Assembly (NCBI RefSeq): GCF_000092905.1
Contig: NC_014098.1
Span: forward strand, 992,001 to 1,056,000
Reading direction: 5' to 3'
Origin: Kyrpidia tusciae DSM 2912
Lineage (GTDB): Bacteria > Bacillota > Bacilli > Kyrpidiales > Kyrpidiaceae
Length of the DNA: 64,000 nt
Below are positions 39,756-45,365 of this stretch, in pieces. The notes below the pieces were generated by a model that saw only the letters and a program-made list of their open reading frames with translations, was not told the DNA's origin and did not search any database. The first letter of the stretch is position 1. Each line of letters begins with the position of its first letter. The position numbers were made by a program, and so were the translations under genes.

Positions 39756-40406
39756 TTAGGGATTTGGCTCTTCCGAATGAGGACGTGGGCTTTGAATCAA
39801 CTCGGCGTGTACCAGGTACCGGTCGGGTGCGAAGCCAAAGTAAAAAAAAGGATAACAGGTCTGCAAGGTCATGGTTTGCCCACGATGAGATGATTGAAGC
39901 ACACTCACGTCCGTTTCCGGGACAATGGTTGTGGAAGTGACCTTGTACACAAAATCTCCGTACAATGTGTGAAATACGATGGTATCCCCGATTTTGATTC
40001 CCCGCAGTGATGCGAAGACCGTATCCCGGTGGCCGGCGACGTAGACATTGCCAAGCTGCCCGGGAAGGGCACTGGACGTCCAGTGCCCAGCCCCTCGTTC
40101 AAGTTGGTCAGGGTCGGTGCCTTGTACCACTGGGACGCGCATATGGAGAGAAGGGATTTCAAGATCGCCGATTTTTGTTCCCGGTTTCGGGTTCACCGGC
40201 CACAGTTTCGCCTTTTCGTGCTGAGGCGGAGAGTAGGTCGGGAGGGACGATCGGCCGATTCCCAAAAGTTGATGCGTGTACCGCCATCCAAAGTAAACGA
40301 TCATTGCCGTCCCCGTGGCCAACCAGACACCGATGCCGATTCGAATGAGGAGGCTAAAGGCGTTTCGAAGCCGGTGGCGGGAAACCACCGATTTCGTTAT
40401 CGCCAC
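39756..40406 (-). CDS. Class D-like sortase
   Basis: A 216-residue membrane-anchored transpeptidase that joins LPxTG proteins to the cell wall. It has an N-terminal membrane segment (about 15-40) and a sortase domain with the catalytic triad visible: His126 in VAGHRDT, Cys184 in LQTCYPF and Arg196 in APDRYLVH. The TLQTCYPFFYFG stretch suggests class D. The GTG overlaps the end of the LPNTG protein gene by 10 bases, with GGAGG about ten bases upstream, so the two are one transcript and very likely enzyme and substrate. Confidence 0.92.
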   Translation of the reverse strand: MAITKSVVSRHRLRNAFSLLIRIGIGVWLATGTAMIVYFGWRYTHQLLGIGRSSLPTYSPPQHEKAKLWPVNPKPGTKIGDLEIPSLHMRVPVVQGTDPDQLERGAGHWTSSALPGQLGNVYVAGHRDTVFASLRGIKIGDTIVFHTLYGDFVYKVTSTTIVPETDVSVLQSSHRGQTMTLQTCYPFFYFGFAPDRYLVHAELIQSPRPHSEEPNP

Positions 40407-41476
40407 GATTGTAACAACCTCCGCATGGGTCGGATGATTAAAATGCCCGAAATCAGCATGAGAAGTCCAGCAAGAATATATAAGGGTTCATTACTGCCAG
40501 TATTGGGCAAAACCGTTGGCGTCGGTTGAGTAACGAGATGGCTGCTCTCACCGCCAGGCTCCCTGGTTGTGCCGGACGTTTGGGGTGGGTTGGCGTTGCC
40601 TTCTTGACTCACAGGGGTGGCAGTGGTGCTTCCCGATGTACCGCCCGAAGGGCCCGTGTTTTCCACGGATCCACCTGACGGGCTCCCGATAGGCTGTGTG
40701 ACGGTACCACCACCGGGGTTGGTTTCTCCTCCGCCGGAGCCGCCACCACCGGGGTTGGTTTCTCCTCCGCCGGAACCGCCACCGCCGGGGTTGGTCTCTC
40801 CTCCGCCGGAGCCGCCACCGCCGGGGTTGGTTTCTCCTCCGCCGGAGCCGCCACCGCCGGGGTTGGTCTCTCCACCGCCGGAACCGCCGCCACCACCGGG
40901 GTTGGTCTCTCCTCCGCCGGAGCCGCCACCGCCGGGGTTGGTCTCTCCACCGCCGGAACCGCCGCCACCGCCGGGGTTGGTCTCTCCACCGCCGGAACCG
41001 CCGCCACCACCGGGGTTGGTCTCTCCTCCGCCGGAGCCGCCGCCACCGGGGTTGGTCTCTCCACCGCCGGAACCGCCACCGCAAGGGCCGGCACTACAAC
41101 CGCCAGGAAGGGTGATGCTCCCGGCCCCGCTGCTATTCACCACATCTGCCACATGATTTAAGATTTGTCCCACCGATGGCCCGGTATCCGGGACTGAAAA
41201 TGTGGTACTGGGTGACGGTGTCACTGCAGAGTCGCCCGAGGGTGCAGTGGTTCCACTGAGGGACGGAATCGATGTACCTACAGTTGTCTGCACATTTTGT
41301 AGCGGATTTCCGATCTTTTGGCTGATGTCATTCAGGGTGTTCATGGTAGAGCTGAGCGATGCGGTCACCGAAGCGGAAAGCTCTGTGTTACCGTCGGCCG
41401 CCGCGGCCGGAAAAGCGCCGGCCGACGAAAGAAGCAGAGCCGCAAAACCGGCGCTGAACAAGCATTTTTTCTTCAT
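40397..41476 (-). CDS. LPNTG cell-wall-anchored protein with ten Gly-rich repeats
   Basis: A 359-residue surface protein. Order: signal peptide (MKKKCLFSAGFAALLLSSAG), a non-repetitive Ser/Thr/Ile/Asn region of about 95 residues, one Cys pair (GGCSAGPCGGG), ten copies of a GGGGSGGGETNPG unit (about residues 132-255), a Ser/Thr/Gly stretch, then LPNTG, a hydrophobic segment and the Arg-rich tail RPMRRLLQSWR: a complete sorting signal. The repeats should form a flexible stalk. ATG 41476 has AGAAGGAGA upstream. The sortase gene overlaps its end. No known domain was recognised in the N-terminal part. Confidence 0.88.
   Translation of the reverse strand: MKKKCLFSAGFAALLLSSAGAFPAAAADGNTELSASVTASLSSTMNTLNDISQKIGNPLQNVQTTVGTSIPSLSGTTAPSGDSAVTPSPSTTFSVPDTGPSVGQILNHVADVVNSSGAGSITLPGGCSAGPCGGGSGGGETNPGGGGSGGGETNPGGGGGSGGGETNPGGGGGSGGGETNPGGGGSGGGETNPGGGGGSGGGETNPGGGGSGGGETNPGGGGSGGGETNPGGGGSGGGETNPGGGGSGGGETNPGGGTVTQPIGSPSGGSVENTGPSGGTSGSTTATPVSQEGNANPPQTSGTTREPGGESSHLVTQPTPTVLPNTGSNEPLYILAGLLMLISGILIIRPMRRLLQSWR
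40710..41082. repeat. Tandem repeat, ten units of 36 or 39 bases
   Basis: Ten near-identical in-frame units encode GGGSGGGETNPG, three of them one Gly codon longer. The nucleotide sequence is highly conserved between units, so copy number can change by slippage or recombination. The array is coding, inside the LPNTG protein, and is not a CRISPR. Confidence 0.92.
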
Positions 41477-41538
41477 CGTCTCGTTTTCTCTCCTTCTGTC
41501 ACCGGGCTGCTGTACCCGATAACCGGGCGAACCCGCAT

Positions 41539-41799
41539 CTACCTCGGCATCTCCGGTAAGGTGACGTGAGTCTCCGATTGAACGGAGATGACCGCCCCTT
41601 GTCCCAGATCGACCGTTGTGCCGGCGGAAGCGGAATATTGCCCAGGTCCGACTTCCTGCAATTGTTGTTGTTGATTCCACGAGGCCACCGGGGTCTGAAC
41701 CGTGATAGAGACTCCCCCTTGGGGAGGGGCGGGCGGATTCGGTGAACTTAGGGTCAGCCACGGGAGAAAGAAGGGAATCATCGACCAAATCGGATTCAT
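41539..41799 (-). CDS. Small secreted hypothetical protein (86 aa)
   Basis: An 86-residue protein: hydrophobic start (MNPIWSMIPFFLPWLTL) that may be a signal or anchor, a Pro-rich turn, then a beta-type region with TVQTPVASWNQQQQLQEV and alternating Val/Gly/Ser residues. No family recognised. The ATG has GAGGAGGTTAAC upstream. It lies between the 135-residue secreted protein and the LPNTG protein, all on the minus strand, so it probably belongs to the sortase cluster. Confidence 0.68.
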   Translation of the reverse strand: MNPIWSMIPFFLPWLTLSSPNPPAPPQGGVSITVQTPVASWNQQQQLQEVGPGQYSASAGTTVDLGQGAVISVQSETHVTLPEMPR

Positions 41800-41906
41800 C
41801 AGTTAACCTCCTCGCTTTGACCTCCGGTAGATCGAAGGGGCATAGCCGGGTGCCCCGTAAGGGCCGAGGCCGGAACCGAAATCCCGGCCTCGAACGTCAG
41901 CCGTGG

Positions 41907-42314
41907 TTATTTCAACAAACCGCCGAGCAAGCCTCCTAAACCGTTGGTCAGCGATTGAACCGTCGAAGCCAAGCCATAACCTCCGCTGGTGGAAGCGCTG
42001 GCCGATAGGCCGTTCGGCCCGCTCAGGGCGGCTGTCGTGTTATATGTACCCCCCAGTATGCCCCCCAACAATCCCGTGAGGCCATCTTGTTTCGCTCCGT
42101 ACGTCGATCCCGCCTGGATGCTGACACCTTGAGATGGGATGGTGGCGGTCACCAGACTACCGGAAGAAATGTTGGTGCTTCCCACGAGGTTGTTGACAGC
42201 CCCGAGTACATCCCCCAGACCGCCGTCAGCTGCGAACGCCGGAGCGGCCGCTCCTCCCACCGTCAATAAGGTTGAGAGCGCCGCGCTGAGCATCCATTTG
42301 TTTTTCATCTTCAT
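41907..42314 (-). CDS. Small secreted Gly/Ser-rich protein, paralogue A (135 aa)
   Basis: A 135-residue exported protein: clear signal peptide (MKMKNKWMLSAALSTLLTVGGAAAPAFAAD, in part) with an AFA cleavage site, then DVLGAVNNLVGSTNISSGSLV, a central GLTGLLGGILGG and a C-terminal GLASTVQSLTNGLGGLLGGLL. The amphipathic Leu/Gly pattern is shared with the neighbour at 42393-42812, clearly a paralogue. No cell-wall anchor is present. It may self-assemble at the surface, but that is a guess. RBS AAAGGGG precedes ATG 42314. Confidence 0.78.
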   Translation of the reverse strand: MKMKNKWMLSAALSTLLTVGGAAAPAFAADGGLGDVLGAVNNLVGSTNISSGSLVTATIPSQGVSIQAGSTYGAKQDGLTGLLGGILGGTYNTTAALSGPNGLSASASTSGGYGLASTVQSLTNGLGGLLGGLLK

Positions 42315-42392
42315 GAACCCCTTTCGCAATTTCTTCAGGAGACATTGTTTGACCAGGACGGGCGGATCCTTCGATTTTCCTGCGGGAGCCTG

Positions 42393-42812
42393 TCACTGGC
42401 CGCCGCCCAGGGCGCTTCCCAGACCGCTTAAGAGATTCCCCAGCGCCTGGGTAGAAGAAGCCAGTCCCCAACTGCCGCTCGCCGACGTACTGGCCGAGTA
42501 GCCGGCATAAGAAGCCGAAGCCGAAGTGCCCGCTGTCCCTCCGAGAATCCCCCCGCTGACAAGCCCCGTCAAGCCAGGTTGATTGACAGAGTTGACGGCT
42601 TTGGCAGTTACCACCGCGTCTCCAACTTGCACACACACTGCGCTCTGGGCGTCGACATTTGAACTGCCCAAGAGACTTCCTATAGCACCGAGCAAATTTC
42701 CCAGTCCGCTGGTGGGAGCCGGGGCAGGAGTGCTGTCTGCCGCAAAAACGGGCACTACACTCCCGAGGCTGAGGGCGGCAGACAGTCCCAACGACAACAT
42801 CCACTTGCGCAT
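42393..42812 (-). CDS. Small secreted Gly/Ser-rich protein, paralogue B (139 aa)
   Basis: A 139-residue exported protein: signal peptide MRKWMLSLGLSAALSLGS ending VFAAD, a Pro/Thr linker, GLGNLLGAIGSLLGSSNVDAQS, then GLTGLVSGGILGGTAGTSAS and the closing GLASSTQALGNLLSGLGSAL. The same order of motifs as paralogue A shows duplication. One Cys is present (AVCVQVG). ATG 42812 has AAAGGAG upstream, and TATAAT on the minus strand at 42850-42855 gives a likely promoter. It is the first gene of the five-gene minus-strand cluster. Confidence 0.78.
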   Translation of the reverse strand: MRKWMLSLGLSAALSLGSVVPVFAADSTPAPAPTSGLGNLLGAIGSLLGSSNVDAQSAVCVQVGDAVVTAKAVNSVNQPGLTGLVSGGILGGTAGTSASASYAGYSASTSASGSWGLASSTQALGNLLSGLGSALGGGQ

Positions 42813-43391
42813 TCCTACACAACTCCTTTCATGGTTGAGTTCGGCGCCGATTATACTGGTTTCAGCCCTTGCCAAAAATAGTGAATTGGACTTATTTGCT
42901 CGACAAAATTCGACAACACTTACAAAAAGTTGGTGATTATATCACATACTATTATGGCGCCGAAGAAAAATTTCCCAGTTACATCAAGGACTATTGCTCT
43001 TCCTAGTAATAGGAGGACAGTAAAAAATTCTCGAAACGGACACATATTAGTCATAAAAAATGGTTCGTTAGACCTATTAAATGTCGAAAAAAATTTTCGC
43101 GGGTTGATTGATTTGGTCTTAAAGAATCATTTCGGAACATCGGATAAGAAAACTTTTCTTTGGATCCCCGGACTGTCTGACCCTGTCGGCTCCTGTTGAT
43201 TCAGGCATTGGGTCTATGAAGTCGAATGACAGAGAAATTCGATTAAAATGAGAGCCCAGTGGACCGTTTGCCGCTCTTTCGCCACTCAGCGGGTTGGAAG
43301 TCCGGTTGGAGATGTTGATACAATCAGGAGGAAATCAAAGGGAAACTTGGTTTAAAGTCCAAGAGAAAAAAGAGACGGGAGGAGAGGTTGC
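42813..43391. promoter_or_regulatory. AT-rich divergent control region of the surface cluster (579 bases)
   Basis: No believable gene. On the minus strand TATAAT at 42850-42855 serves the small secreted proteins. An exact Spo0A box in reverse orientation (TTCGACA) lies at 42909-42915, with a near-match (CTCGACA) ten bases away at 42899-42905. The part 42860-43160 is markedly AT-richer than the neighbourhood. An ORF at 42930-43199 has no ribosome binding site. GGGAGGAGAGG at the right edge belongs to the gene at 43392. Confidence 0.5.
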
Positions 43392-45365
43392 GTGCGAGGT
43401 TGGCAATGGGTGATGGGTGCGGGGGTGTTGGGTATAGGCGTTGTGTTGTGCCCATGGCCAACTAGCCCAGGCAACCCGCAAACCGTGGGAGAGATGATAT
43501 CACTGCTTGTAACCAGACAACGACCGGACGTCTCTACGGCGGCATCCGCCAAATCCCCTGCGGTTCTTGCTGCTGCAGTTCCGGTGTTTCAGTCGGGTGC
43601 TCCGTGGGCTCCGTTTTCGCCTGGGCAGCCCAGTTGGCTGATTGGCCGCGGTGCGGATGGCGTCCAAGGCGAGAATGCGTCTGGCCTGGCCGGTGGCCTT
43701 GGGGCCCTCGGGTGGCTGGGCCGCCCGGAAGGGGGCACAAGTTCGGTGATGTTTATTGGAACTTTGCGAACATTTGGATATTCTGGTTCGGATTTTGTAT
43801 ACAATCCACGCTTGGAGTTTCGGGGCACAGCGGCTCCGTCTCTCAGTGCGTCCAAGGGGACCCCGGCGTCACTGCCAGCGGAAAGCGGGGCCTCTGGGGA
43901 GAATGCACGTTCTGGGGATGCAGGTGGGCCAGCTTATCACGCAACCACGAACCCCTGGCCTTTTCCGAGGAGTTCCGGCGGGTCTCATCGCAGCAGCGTT
44001 CCAGCACCACCCGCGCCACCTCGGCCATCCGTTCCCGAGCAACCCAAACCGGCCCAACCGCCTGTACCGACAGTTCCGGATGGGAATGTCAACCCGCCGA
44101 AATCTGTTCCGATTTCGGAGCCGCCGACGGTGATAAATCCTCCTGTTGCTGTGATTACTCCGCCGGTCCTACCCGGACTGCCGGCTTTGCCCAAGCTGCC
44201 GGTTTTACCTGATCTGCCGACTTTACCGGGTATTCCTGAAATTGGCAAGCCAGAGTCCGGTGGCAAAACTGGGCCCGGCGTGCCGCGCCTCGAACCGGGG
44301 GCGTTGATCGATTCATTGTTCGGCCAAGTGTTCGGTGCTCTTGTTCCCGAAAAGAATGCCGAACTTTTCCCGATGCTTCCGTTCGATTCGACGACCCAAA
44401 GTCCAGCGGGCGTTCCCGGGCAAAAGGCGGAGACGCCTATCCCCGGCGGGTTACTTTCCCGGCCCGAACAGTTCCAGGTGCCCGCTCCGGGAGACGGTGC
44501 GAATCGTTCTCCGGTAAGTCCCGTCGGAGATGTTCGGCAGTGGACGAAAGAAATTCTTACGGGTCTGTCTAATGGTTTCGGTAAAAATTCCGGCCTCGTC
44601 CAACAACCGGGTCCCAGTGGACAGGCGAAAAACGGGGTTCAAGGGGCTGATGCAGGGCAGTCCTATGATCGGCAGGCTGCCCCTTCTATCGACAGAACTT
44701 CTCCCCCGGGACAGGGGTACGAATCAGCGATAAAAGGGTTTGCAGTTCCGGTTGCTTCTGCGCAACAGCAAAAGTCCTCTTGGCGCGATTCGTGGTTGGG
44801 CACCTTCGATATGCCAAAGAATGTGATCAATCCTGACGCTTCCGCATCCAAAGTTTCCGGGGACAAGCCCCAATCTCCCTGGGGTCCCCCTTCATTGTTT
44901 GGTTCGGGTCGGGAGTGGATGGGTCGCGCGGAAGCACGTAGAGACCAGGGGAATGGTTCGAGTGAACCCTCTCAAAATCCCGCGTCCTGGGGCACCGCAG
45001 GTTCGTGGAGATCTGCGAGTTCCGTTGCCCAGGCCCCAGGGGCTTCCGTGGGGAACACTTCCAAGGACAGAGTCGGGGTGTCGCCGGGGTACACTGGGCA
45101 AGTGCATTCCGAGAATCGATCCGCACCGGCGTCCGTCGGGGCAGATTCGAGTGCTGTCCGGGGGACATCTGGGGGTTCACCGGCGGCGAGCTCCAGTGCT
45201 TCACCTCAGAGCTCAGCGGATGCTCATCCATCTTCTGGAGGCACGTCAGCGTCCTCCTCGTCTTCCACAGCATCGGCCAGTTCGGCTTCTTCTCAATCCG
45301 GAGGCCTAGGCGGGACCATTAGCCATCTGCTAAGCAGTTTGGCGAAAAGCCTCTCCCTTCACTGA
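43392..45365 (+). CDS. Large low-complexity secreted protein (657 aa)
   Basis: A 657-residue protein I do not recognise. Order: hydrophobic export signal at about 3-25, a Ser/Ala/Gly region, a Pro-rich part (PAPPAPPRPSVPEQPKPAQP, then LPGLPALPKLPVLPDLPTLP), a possibly folded stretch around 285-325 (LIDSLFGQVFGALVPEKNAEL), a long Ser/Gln/Gly-rich tail and an amphipathic C-terminal helix LGGTISHLLSSLAKSLSLH. No LPxTG signal, SLH or enzyme motif. The GTG has GGGAGGAGAGG upstream. It is divergent from the sortase cluster and shares its control region, so a structural surface or spore role is likely but unproven. Confidence 0.72.
   Translation: MRGWQWVMGAGVLGIGVVLCPWPTSPGNPQTVGEMISLLVTRQRPDVSTAASAKSPAVLAAAVPVFQSGAPWAPFSPGQPSWLIGRGADGVQGENASGLAGGLGALGWLGRPEGGTSSVMFIGTLRTFGYSGSDFVYNPRLEFRGTAAPSLSASKGTPASLPAESGASGENARSGDAGGPAYHATTNPWPFPRSSGGSHRSSVPAPPAPPRPSVPEQPKPAQPPVPTVPDGNVNPPKSVPISEPPTVINPPVAVITPPVLPGLPALPKLPVLPDLPTLPGIPEIGKPESGGKTGPGVPRLEPGALIDSLFGQVFGALVPEKNAELFPMLPFDSTTQSPAGVPGQKAETPIPGGLLSRPEQFQVPAPGDGANRSPVSPVGDVRQWTKEILTGLSNGFGKNSGLVQQPGPSGQAKNGVQGADAGQSYDRQAAPSIDRTSPPGQGYESAIKGFAVPVASAQQQKSSWRDSWLGTFDMPKNVINPDASASKVSGDKPQSPWGPPSLFGSGREWMGRAEARRDQGNGSSEPSQNPASWGTAGSWRSASSVAQAPGASVGNTSKDRVGVSPGYTGQVHSENRSAPASVGADSSAVRGTSGGSPAASSSASPQSSADAHPSSGGTSASSSSSTASASSASSQSGGLGGTISHLLSSLAKSLSLH

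Follow-up and report, generated by a model that had tools for sequence, protein, structure and literature searches.

What surface structure, if any single one, do the genes gathered around a class D-like sortase in the thermophilic endospore former Kyrpidia tusciae DSM 2912 encode? The window analysed here is a stretch of 64,000 nucleotides, and the features of the locus are collected in Table 1. On the minus strand the order of transcription is A, B, C, LPNTG protein and sortase, with intergenic gaps of about 78, 107, 62 and -10 bases, respectively. The 657-residue ORF, divergent to A, starts beyond an AT-rich gap, and the intergenic region between the two has a G+C content of 42% against about 60% in the surroundings. 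The first-pass annotation had described this divergent ORF and its shared AT-rich region, as well as an LPNTG protein whose ten repeats are rich in Gly and whose gene overlaps that of a sortase. Both descriptions were reproduced here, and the overlap measures 10 bases. The annotation had gone on to propose that the six genes may form one apparatus, and this is the point that the comparisons below refine.

Table 1 Features of the K. tusciae locus, in window coordinates.
Feature	Position	Strand	Remarks
Class D-like sortase	39756..40406	-	Start overlaps LPNTG stop; PF04203
LPNTG-anchored stalk protein	40397..41476	-	Overlaps sortase start by 10 bases
C	41539..41799	-	86 aa, polar and apolar residues alternating; homologues beside A and B
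B	41907..42314	-	About 135 aa, paralogue of A (A/B tree), second subunit
A	42393..42812	-	139 aa, first in run, small exported Gly/Ala/Ser/Leu-rich protein with Sec-type signal peptide
Promoter-like element: ACTATTTTTG, spacer, GTATAAT	42850..42882	-	Invariant blocks
Tandem Spo0A-box-like repeat TGTCGAATTTTGTCGA	42900..42915	-	103 and 93 bases before A start
Third 0A box TGTCGAA	43082..43088	+	Upstream of 657-aa gene, near -276 from A
657-aa low-complexity exported protein	43392..45365	+	Divergent; Kyrpidia-specific

The sortase is the only PF04203 match in the K. tusciae genome (114.8 bits, cut-off 26.6), and its catalytic His (GHRDT), Cys (TLQTCYP) and Arg (APDRY) were all found. It lies above the cut-off of the NF058671 sortase_SrtD model (162.3 bits, cut-off 140) and below those of the broader class D model NF033746 (149.1, cut-off 165) and of the class C model (71, cut-off 160). 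Its top PDB matches are 2ln7 (best) and 4d70, which we take to be class D enzymes from B. anthracis and C. perfringens, respectively. A literature search for a sortase in Kyrpidia found no paper. A sortase-assembled pilus was considered and rejected, as the genome has one sortase, scoring below the class C cut-off, and the cluster one LPXTG protein. The LPNTG protein likely starts at the ATG at position 41476, giving 359 residues against 463 for the mechanically called ORF, and comprises a head, a di-cysteine motif, exactly ten ETNPG-type repeats (GGGSGGGETNP), the LPNTG motif, a membrane segment and a basic tail. It matches Gram_pos_anchor above the Pfam cut-off and scores below that of the LPxTATN model (16.4, cut-off 32). 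The enzyme is termed class D-like only, because the sorting signal of its adjacent substrate is LPNTGSN instead of the LPXTA type expected of a class D substrate, although C. perfringens SrtD (CpSrtD) works on LPQTGS (PMC4498605). We infer that the sortase acts on the adjacent LPNTG protein.

The three small proteins ahead of this pair stand where the earlier reading had placed them, and A and B are indeed paralogues (51% identity). The signal peptide of A, read by eye, ends VFA-ADS. Mature A and B have a GRAVY of 0.3-0.4, contain 19-23% Gly and lack Arg and Glu, and each subunit in the A/B alignment has at most one cysteine. C is probably beta-rich. Export of all three, as claimed earlier, holds less firmly for this protein, which in Kyrpidia has a short, hydrophobic N-terminus and no canonical signal peptide; its homologues in two other genomes (G027 and G059) have one, and C is probably exported. 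Searches of Pfam, NCBIfam and PDB sequences returned nothing real for A, B, C or the 657-aa protein, and 0 of 14 members of the A/B family had any Pfam match. The absence of recognised relatives noted earlier is therefore borne out for Pfam and NCBIfam but not for genomes, where relatives were found. AlphaFold modelling of mature A (six sequences) gave no confident fold (pLDDT 43), so that assembly of the subunits is treated below in conditional terms; the predicted A/B order of helix, two beta hairpins and helix serves as a hint only.

Relatives of A were recovered in five genomes besides K. tusciae, and the A-B-C set occurs in six genomes of two bacterial classes. A class sample of 300 genomes held the A/B family in five, a phylum sample of 398 genomes added G610 from another class, 113 genomes of the class of G610 yielded no further A/B carrier, and a scan of GTDB contigs recovered Kyrpidia Bu79 alone. 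The distribution is rare and patchy. No mobile carrier was seen, since plasmid, phage and IMG/VR searches returned neither A nor A/B. Homologues of C adjoin A and B in G104, on contig C27 of Bu79 and in G027, G059 and G610, the sequence match being weak in the last three. The gene order is A-B-C in Kyrpidia and G104 and C-A-B in G027, G059 and G610, and these two orders coincide with the two halves of the A/B tree. In this tree of 16 sequences the A and B types separate with 100/100 support, and every genome with the set keeps at least one A and at least one B. Between relatives dN/dS is 0.04-0.16 for A and 0.04-0.17 for A, B and C together, ratios that are rough between lineages because many dS values exceed 1 and are saturated (dS is 0.4-0.9 for the G027/G059 and Bu79a/Bu79b comparisons). 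A, B and C are thus not chance ORFs, and by these ratios the set is under strong purifying selection. Pairing and selection together form the pattern that would be expected of two cooperating subunits, as distinct from a proof of cooperation.

The neighbours of the set vary more than the set itself. In the Kyrpidia MAG Bu79 (G002), contig C49 carries the 657-aa orthologue, A, B, C (with one in-frame stop) and an LPXTG orthologue, inside whose repeats the contig ends. A second A-B-C copy on contig C27 is accompanied by a strong hairpin ending in T's, and the 457 bases up to the contig end hold no LPXTG start. In G104 A-B-C stands alone, with neither an LPXTG protein nor a sortase adjoining, and in G610 C-A-B is likewise alone. 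As the set is free-standing in these three loci, the tether is dispensable. In the very distantly related G027 and G059 the run C-A-B-A2 is followed directly, on the same strand, by an LPRTG protein whose Pro-rich repeat stalk is unrelated to that of Kyrpidia. The sortase lies beside the set in K. tusciae only, the Bu79 contig ending before the corresponding place; G027 and G059 have a single sortase each, distant from the set, and that of G059 is not class D, being nearest to class C/E models and under all their class cut-offs. No PF04203 match was found in G104 (99% complete), in Kyrpidia strain EA-1 or in Bu79 (86% complete).

A rival reading is that a free secreted A-B-C system is by chance the neighbour of an ordinary LPXTG/sortase pair of unrelated function. 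The three free-standing sets and the lack of a sortase match in G104 fit that view, as does the K. tusciae LPXTG head, in which the subunit module is not detectable; a search of this head and of those of G027/G059 gave nothing significant. Chance neighbourhood nevertheless seems rather unlikely. The LPXTG gene sits directly behind the set in Kyrpidia and does so again in G027/G059, where the sole sortase is encoded away from the set. In Bu79 the head of the LPXTG protein starts with the N-terminal module of the subunits (16.9 bits, a score reached by 0/500 shuffles; local score of 68 against the subunit N-terminus, 0/1000 shuffles). Between A and the sortase, moreover, no terminator-like site was found on the minus strand, by a terminator scan that was itself no better than chance. 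All four LPXTG proteins (two from Kyrpidia, those of G027 and G059) also have a Cys-x2-Cys or Cys-x4-Cys motif where the head meets the stalk, with no further cysteine in the mature part read.

The control region bears on timing. The two boxes upstream of A in K. tusciae are TGTCGAA at -103 and TGTCGAG at -93, and TGTCGAA is the core of the 0A box (PMC3485338). The pattern TGTCGA-N4-TGTCGA lies ahead of A in 3/3 Kyrpidia loci (-103/-93, -102/-92 and -107/-97), with 12/12 box positions invariant against 37% of columns just upstream; as these loci share a common ancestor, they do not count as three separate observations of the boxes. The hexamer TGTCGA of the third box is similarly kept in 3/3 Kyrpidia loci. 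Mononucleotide shuffles of each region upstream of A produced the box pair in 1/20,000, and the K. tusciae genome contains four occurrences against one of the reversed control pattern. One of the other three genomic pairs is located shortly upstream of a dnaG-like gene. The promoter-like element upstream of A, whose ACTATTTTTG block and TATAAT-like -10 recur in 3/3 Kyrpidia loci, combines a -10-like GTATAAT with a weak -35, and was not recovered by a sigma-70 consensus scan, which performed no better than chance. Members of the Spo0A regulon are expected to have a 0A box in the promoter region, and predicted boxes lie there upstream of A, which suggests Spo0A control of the set. This is argued for Kyrpidia only, because the box pair ahead of the set is absent in G104, G027 and G059; G610 has one single inverted 0A box upstream. 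A transition-phase or sporulation role agrees with the boxes.

Two other readings draw on the same boxes. The subunits could belong to a true spore-surface structure, placed on the forespore or on an outer layer that the mother cell supplies, and the class D sortase could be active in sporulation: the sortase matches class D, with 2ln7 as best PDB match, the literature ties class D sortases to sporulation (PMC4498605), as for B. anthracis SrtD/BasI, and K. tusciae sporulates (PMC3236038). This is unlikely, however, as the signal peptides are of the Sec type and the -10, by eye, is a vegetative-type TATAAT and not a mother-cell or forespore sigma motif. Class D does not in itself imply spores, since a class D sortase also occurs in the TasA biofilm cluster of G014, described below. 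Alternatively, A and B might make up a secreted peptide toxin or bacteriocin with two components, comparable to those of Spo0A-controlled cannibalism, and C might be an accessory or an immunity factor; small Gly-rich secreted proteins in pairs and a patchy distribution would speak for this alongside the boxes. Sec-type signal peptides instead of double-glycine leaders, selection that is strongly purifying and not diversifying, the LPXTG linkage, and the lack, in every copy of the set, of any obvious gene for an exporter of its own or for an immunity protein in the membrane make a toxin highly improbable.

The 657-aa protein behaves differently from the rest of the locus. It was found in Kyrpidia only, and its dN/dS is 0.65 against 0.07-0.39 for its neighbours. 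In EA-1 (G003) its orthologue has 498 residues owing to an internal deletion, and A, B and the sortase are all without match. Next to this orthologue lie an LPXTG C-terminal remnant matching window positions 40410-40475 (91% identical) and a sortase active-site remnant matching 39820-39864 (93%), from which it follows that EA-1 once had the set and then deleted it. Because the 657-aa protein evolves fast and was kept in EA-1 after the loss of the other five, it is left out of the core; it is separable and probably not a core member. The earlier proposal of one apparatus thus survives in reduced form. The three small-protein genes and a gene for an LPXTG stalk do form a set, adjoining one another on one strand in G027, G059 and Bu79, whereas the six genes are not indivisible, A-B-C occurring without the sortase pair in the three free-standing loci and the sortase being unlinked in G027/G059. 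The observation that had been named beforehand as speaking against it, small proteins and a 657-residue protein mostly found without the sortase pair, came half true: the small proteins often lack the pair, and the 657-residue protein is separable.

Among known systems, the chaplins of Streptomyces (ChpA-H, SrtE1/E2) likewise combine small secreted hydrophobic subunits with longer sortase-anchored proteins and have developmental timing, and the subunit module in the Bu79 anchor has its counterpart in the chaplin domains of long chaplins (PMC5148588, PMC13251363); for the present locus the timing is deduced from the 0A boxes. In contrast, the locus has a class D-like sortase, an LPNTG signal and an endospore-forming host. 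A and B were rejected as chaplins, the chaplin domain (Pfam, 14 members) and its two paired Cys per domain being absent, and since these domain tests failed the system is not filed as one; the likeness is one of analogy, not homology. A parallel comes from G014 (L055), which bears the genus label of G104. Its sipW-tasA-tapA-like-LPXTG cluster ends in a class D sortase belonging to the NCBIfam family of the K. tusciae enzyme, and the LPXTG-like protein (LPDTA) of that cluster contains a TasA-type domain. Judged from its genes, this is an independent case of a class D sortase and a wall anchor together with secreted fibre subunits. Its subunits are of the camelysin/TasA type with SipW adjoining, unlike A, B and C, for which a TasA/camelysin fibre was rejected because they show no PF12389 domain or SipW-type signal, G014 serving as positive control. 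B. anthracis SrtD/BasI and C. perfringens SrtD share the sortase class, and in C. perfringens the sortase and its LPQTGS substrate share one operon (PMC4498605); the signals there are LPNTA or LPQTGS against LPNTGSN here, and no A-B-C set is described there.

Our preferred reading, to which we assign a probability of about 0.5, is a secreted A/B coat or fibre with C, produced at the Spo0A transition and with the LPXTG stalk and sortase as an optional tether. A and B would be an ancient, exported pair of paralogous subunits that assemble jointly with C as an extracellular, hydrophobic coat or fibre. The role of tether would fall to the LPNTG protein, its head contacting the coat and its long, flexible Gly-rich stalk following the di-cysteine motif, while the adjacent sortase would cut the sorting signal and join the protein to peptidoglycan. 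Expression would rise with Spo0A phosphorylation, as growth ceases or sporulation begins. Polymerisation, a hydrophobic surface and co-transcription of the locus are all putative, and the species paper, which describes the K. tusciae wall as 'without a protein coat' (PMC3236038), counts against a coat. The set is missing from EA-1, which has been investigated for its cathodic biofilms (PMC7823960), and present in K. tusciae, and the two offer a ready natural comparison.

More tentatively, and on balance doubtfully, A-B-C may be an unrecognised two-subunit extracellular coat of endospore formers that spread piecewise between distant lineages, had tethers with different stalks added independently, and is unrelated to chaplins, TasA or S-layers. 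Should the preferred reading hold, endospore formers would own a counterpart of the chaplin system, in which small secreted subunits remodel the surface of the cell as growth ends, complete with a sortase tether. Class D sortases, whose role is poorly known outside a few pathogens, would gain a natural set of substrate and partners, and three nameless protein families would gain a testable function.

Comparison of the loci reveals about 13 kb of DNA between the gene of the 657-residue protein orthologue and psd in Kyrpidia strain EA-1, which is absent from the corresponding place in K. tusciae and encodes a DUF6230/DUF6114 pair together with an SLH protein of 827 residues displaying Gly/Leu-rich repeats. 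The latter is a different surface protein, adjoining the site where the sortase set was lost. In the Kyrpidia MAG Bu79, the C gene on contig C49 is either a pseudogene or a MAG error, whereas the second copy, on contig C27, is an open frame. A further tandem pair of 0A boxes in K. tusciae starts about 57 bases upstream of a dnaG-like primase gene. The cluster of genome G014 possibly provides a sortase tether for TasA-type fibres.

Coordinates of the features at the compared loci
Feature	Location	Remark
sipW-tasA-tapA-like-LPXTG-class D sortase cluster	L055:5448-9569 (G014)	
Region lying between the 657-residue orthologue and psd	L016:4081-11055 (EA-1)	
C gene	L018:17228-17490 (Bu79 C49)	one in-frame stop
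Second tandem 0A-box pair	G000:C1:772077-772092 (K. tusciae)	spacing equal to pair upstream of A
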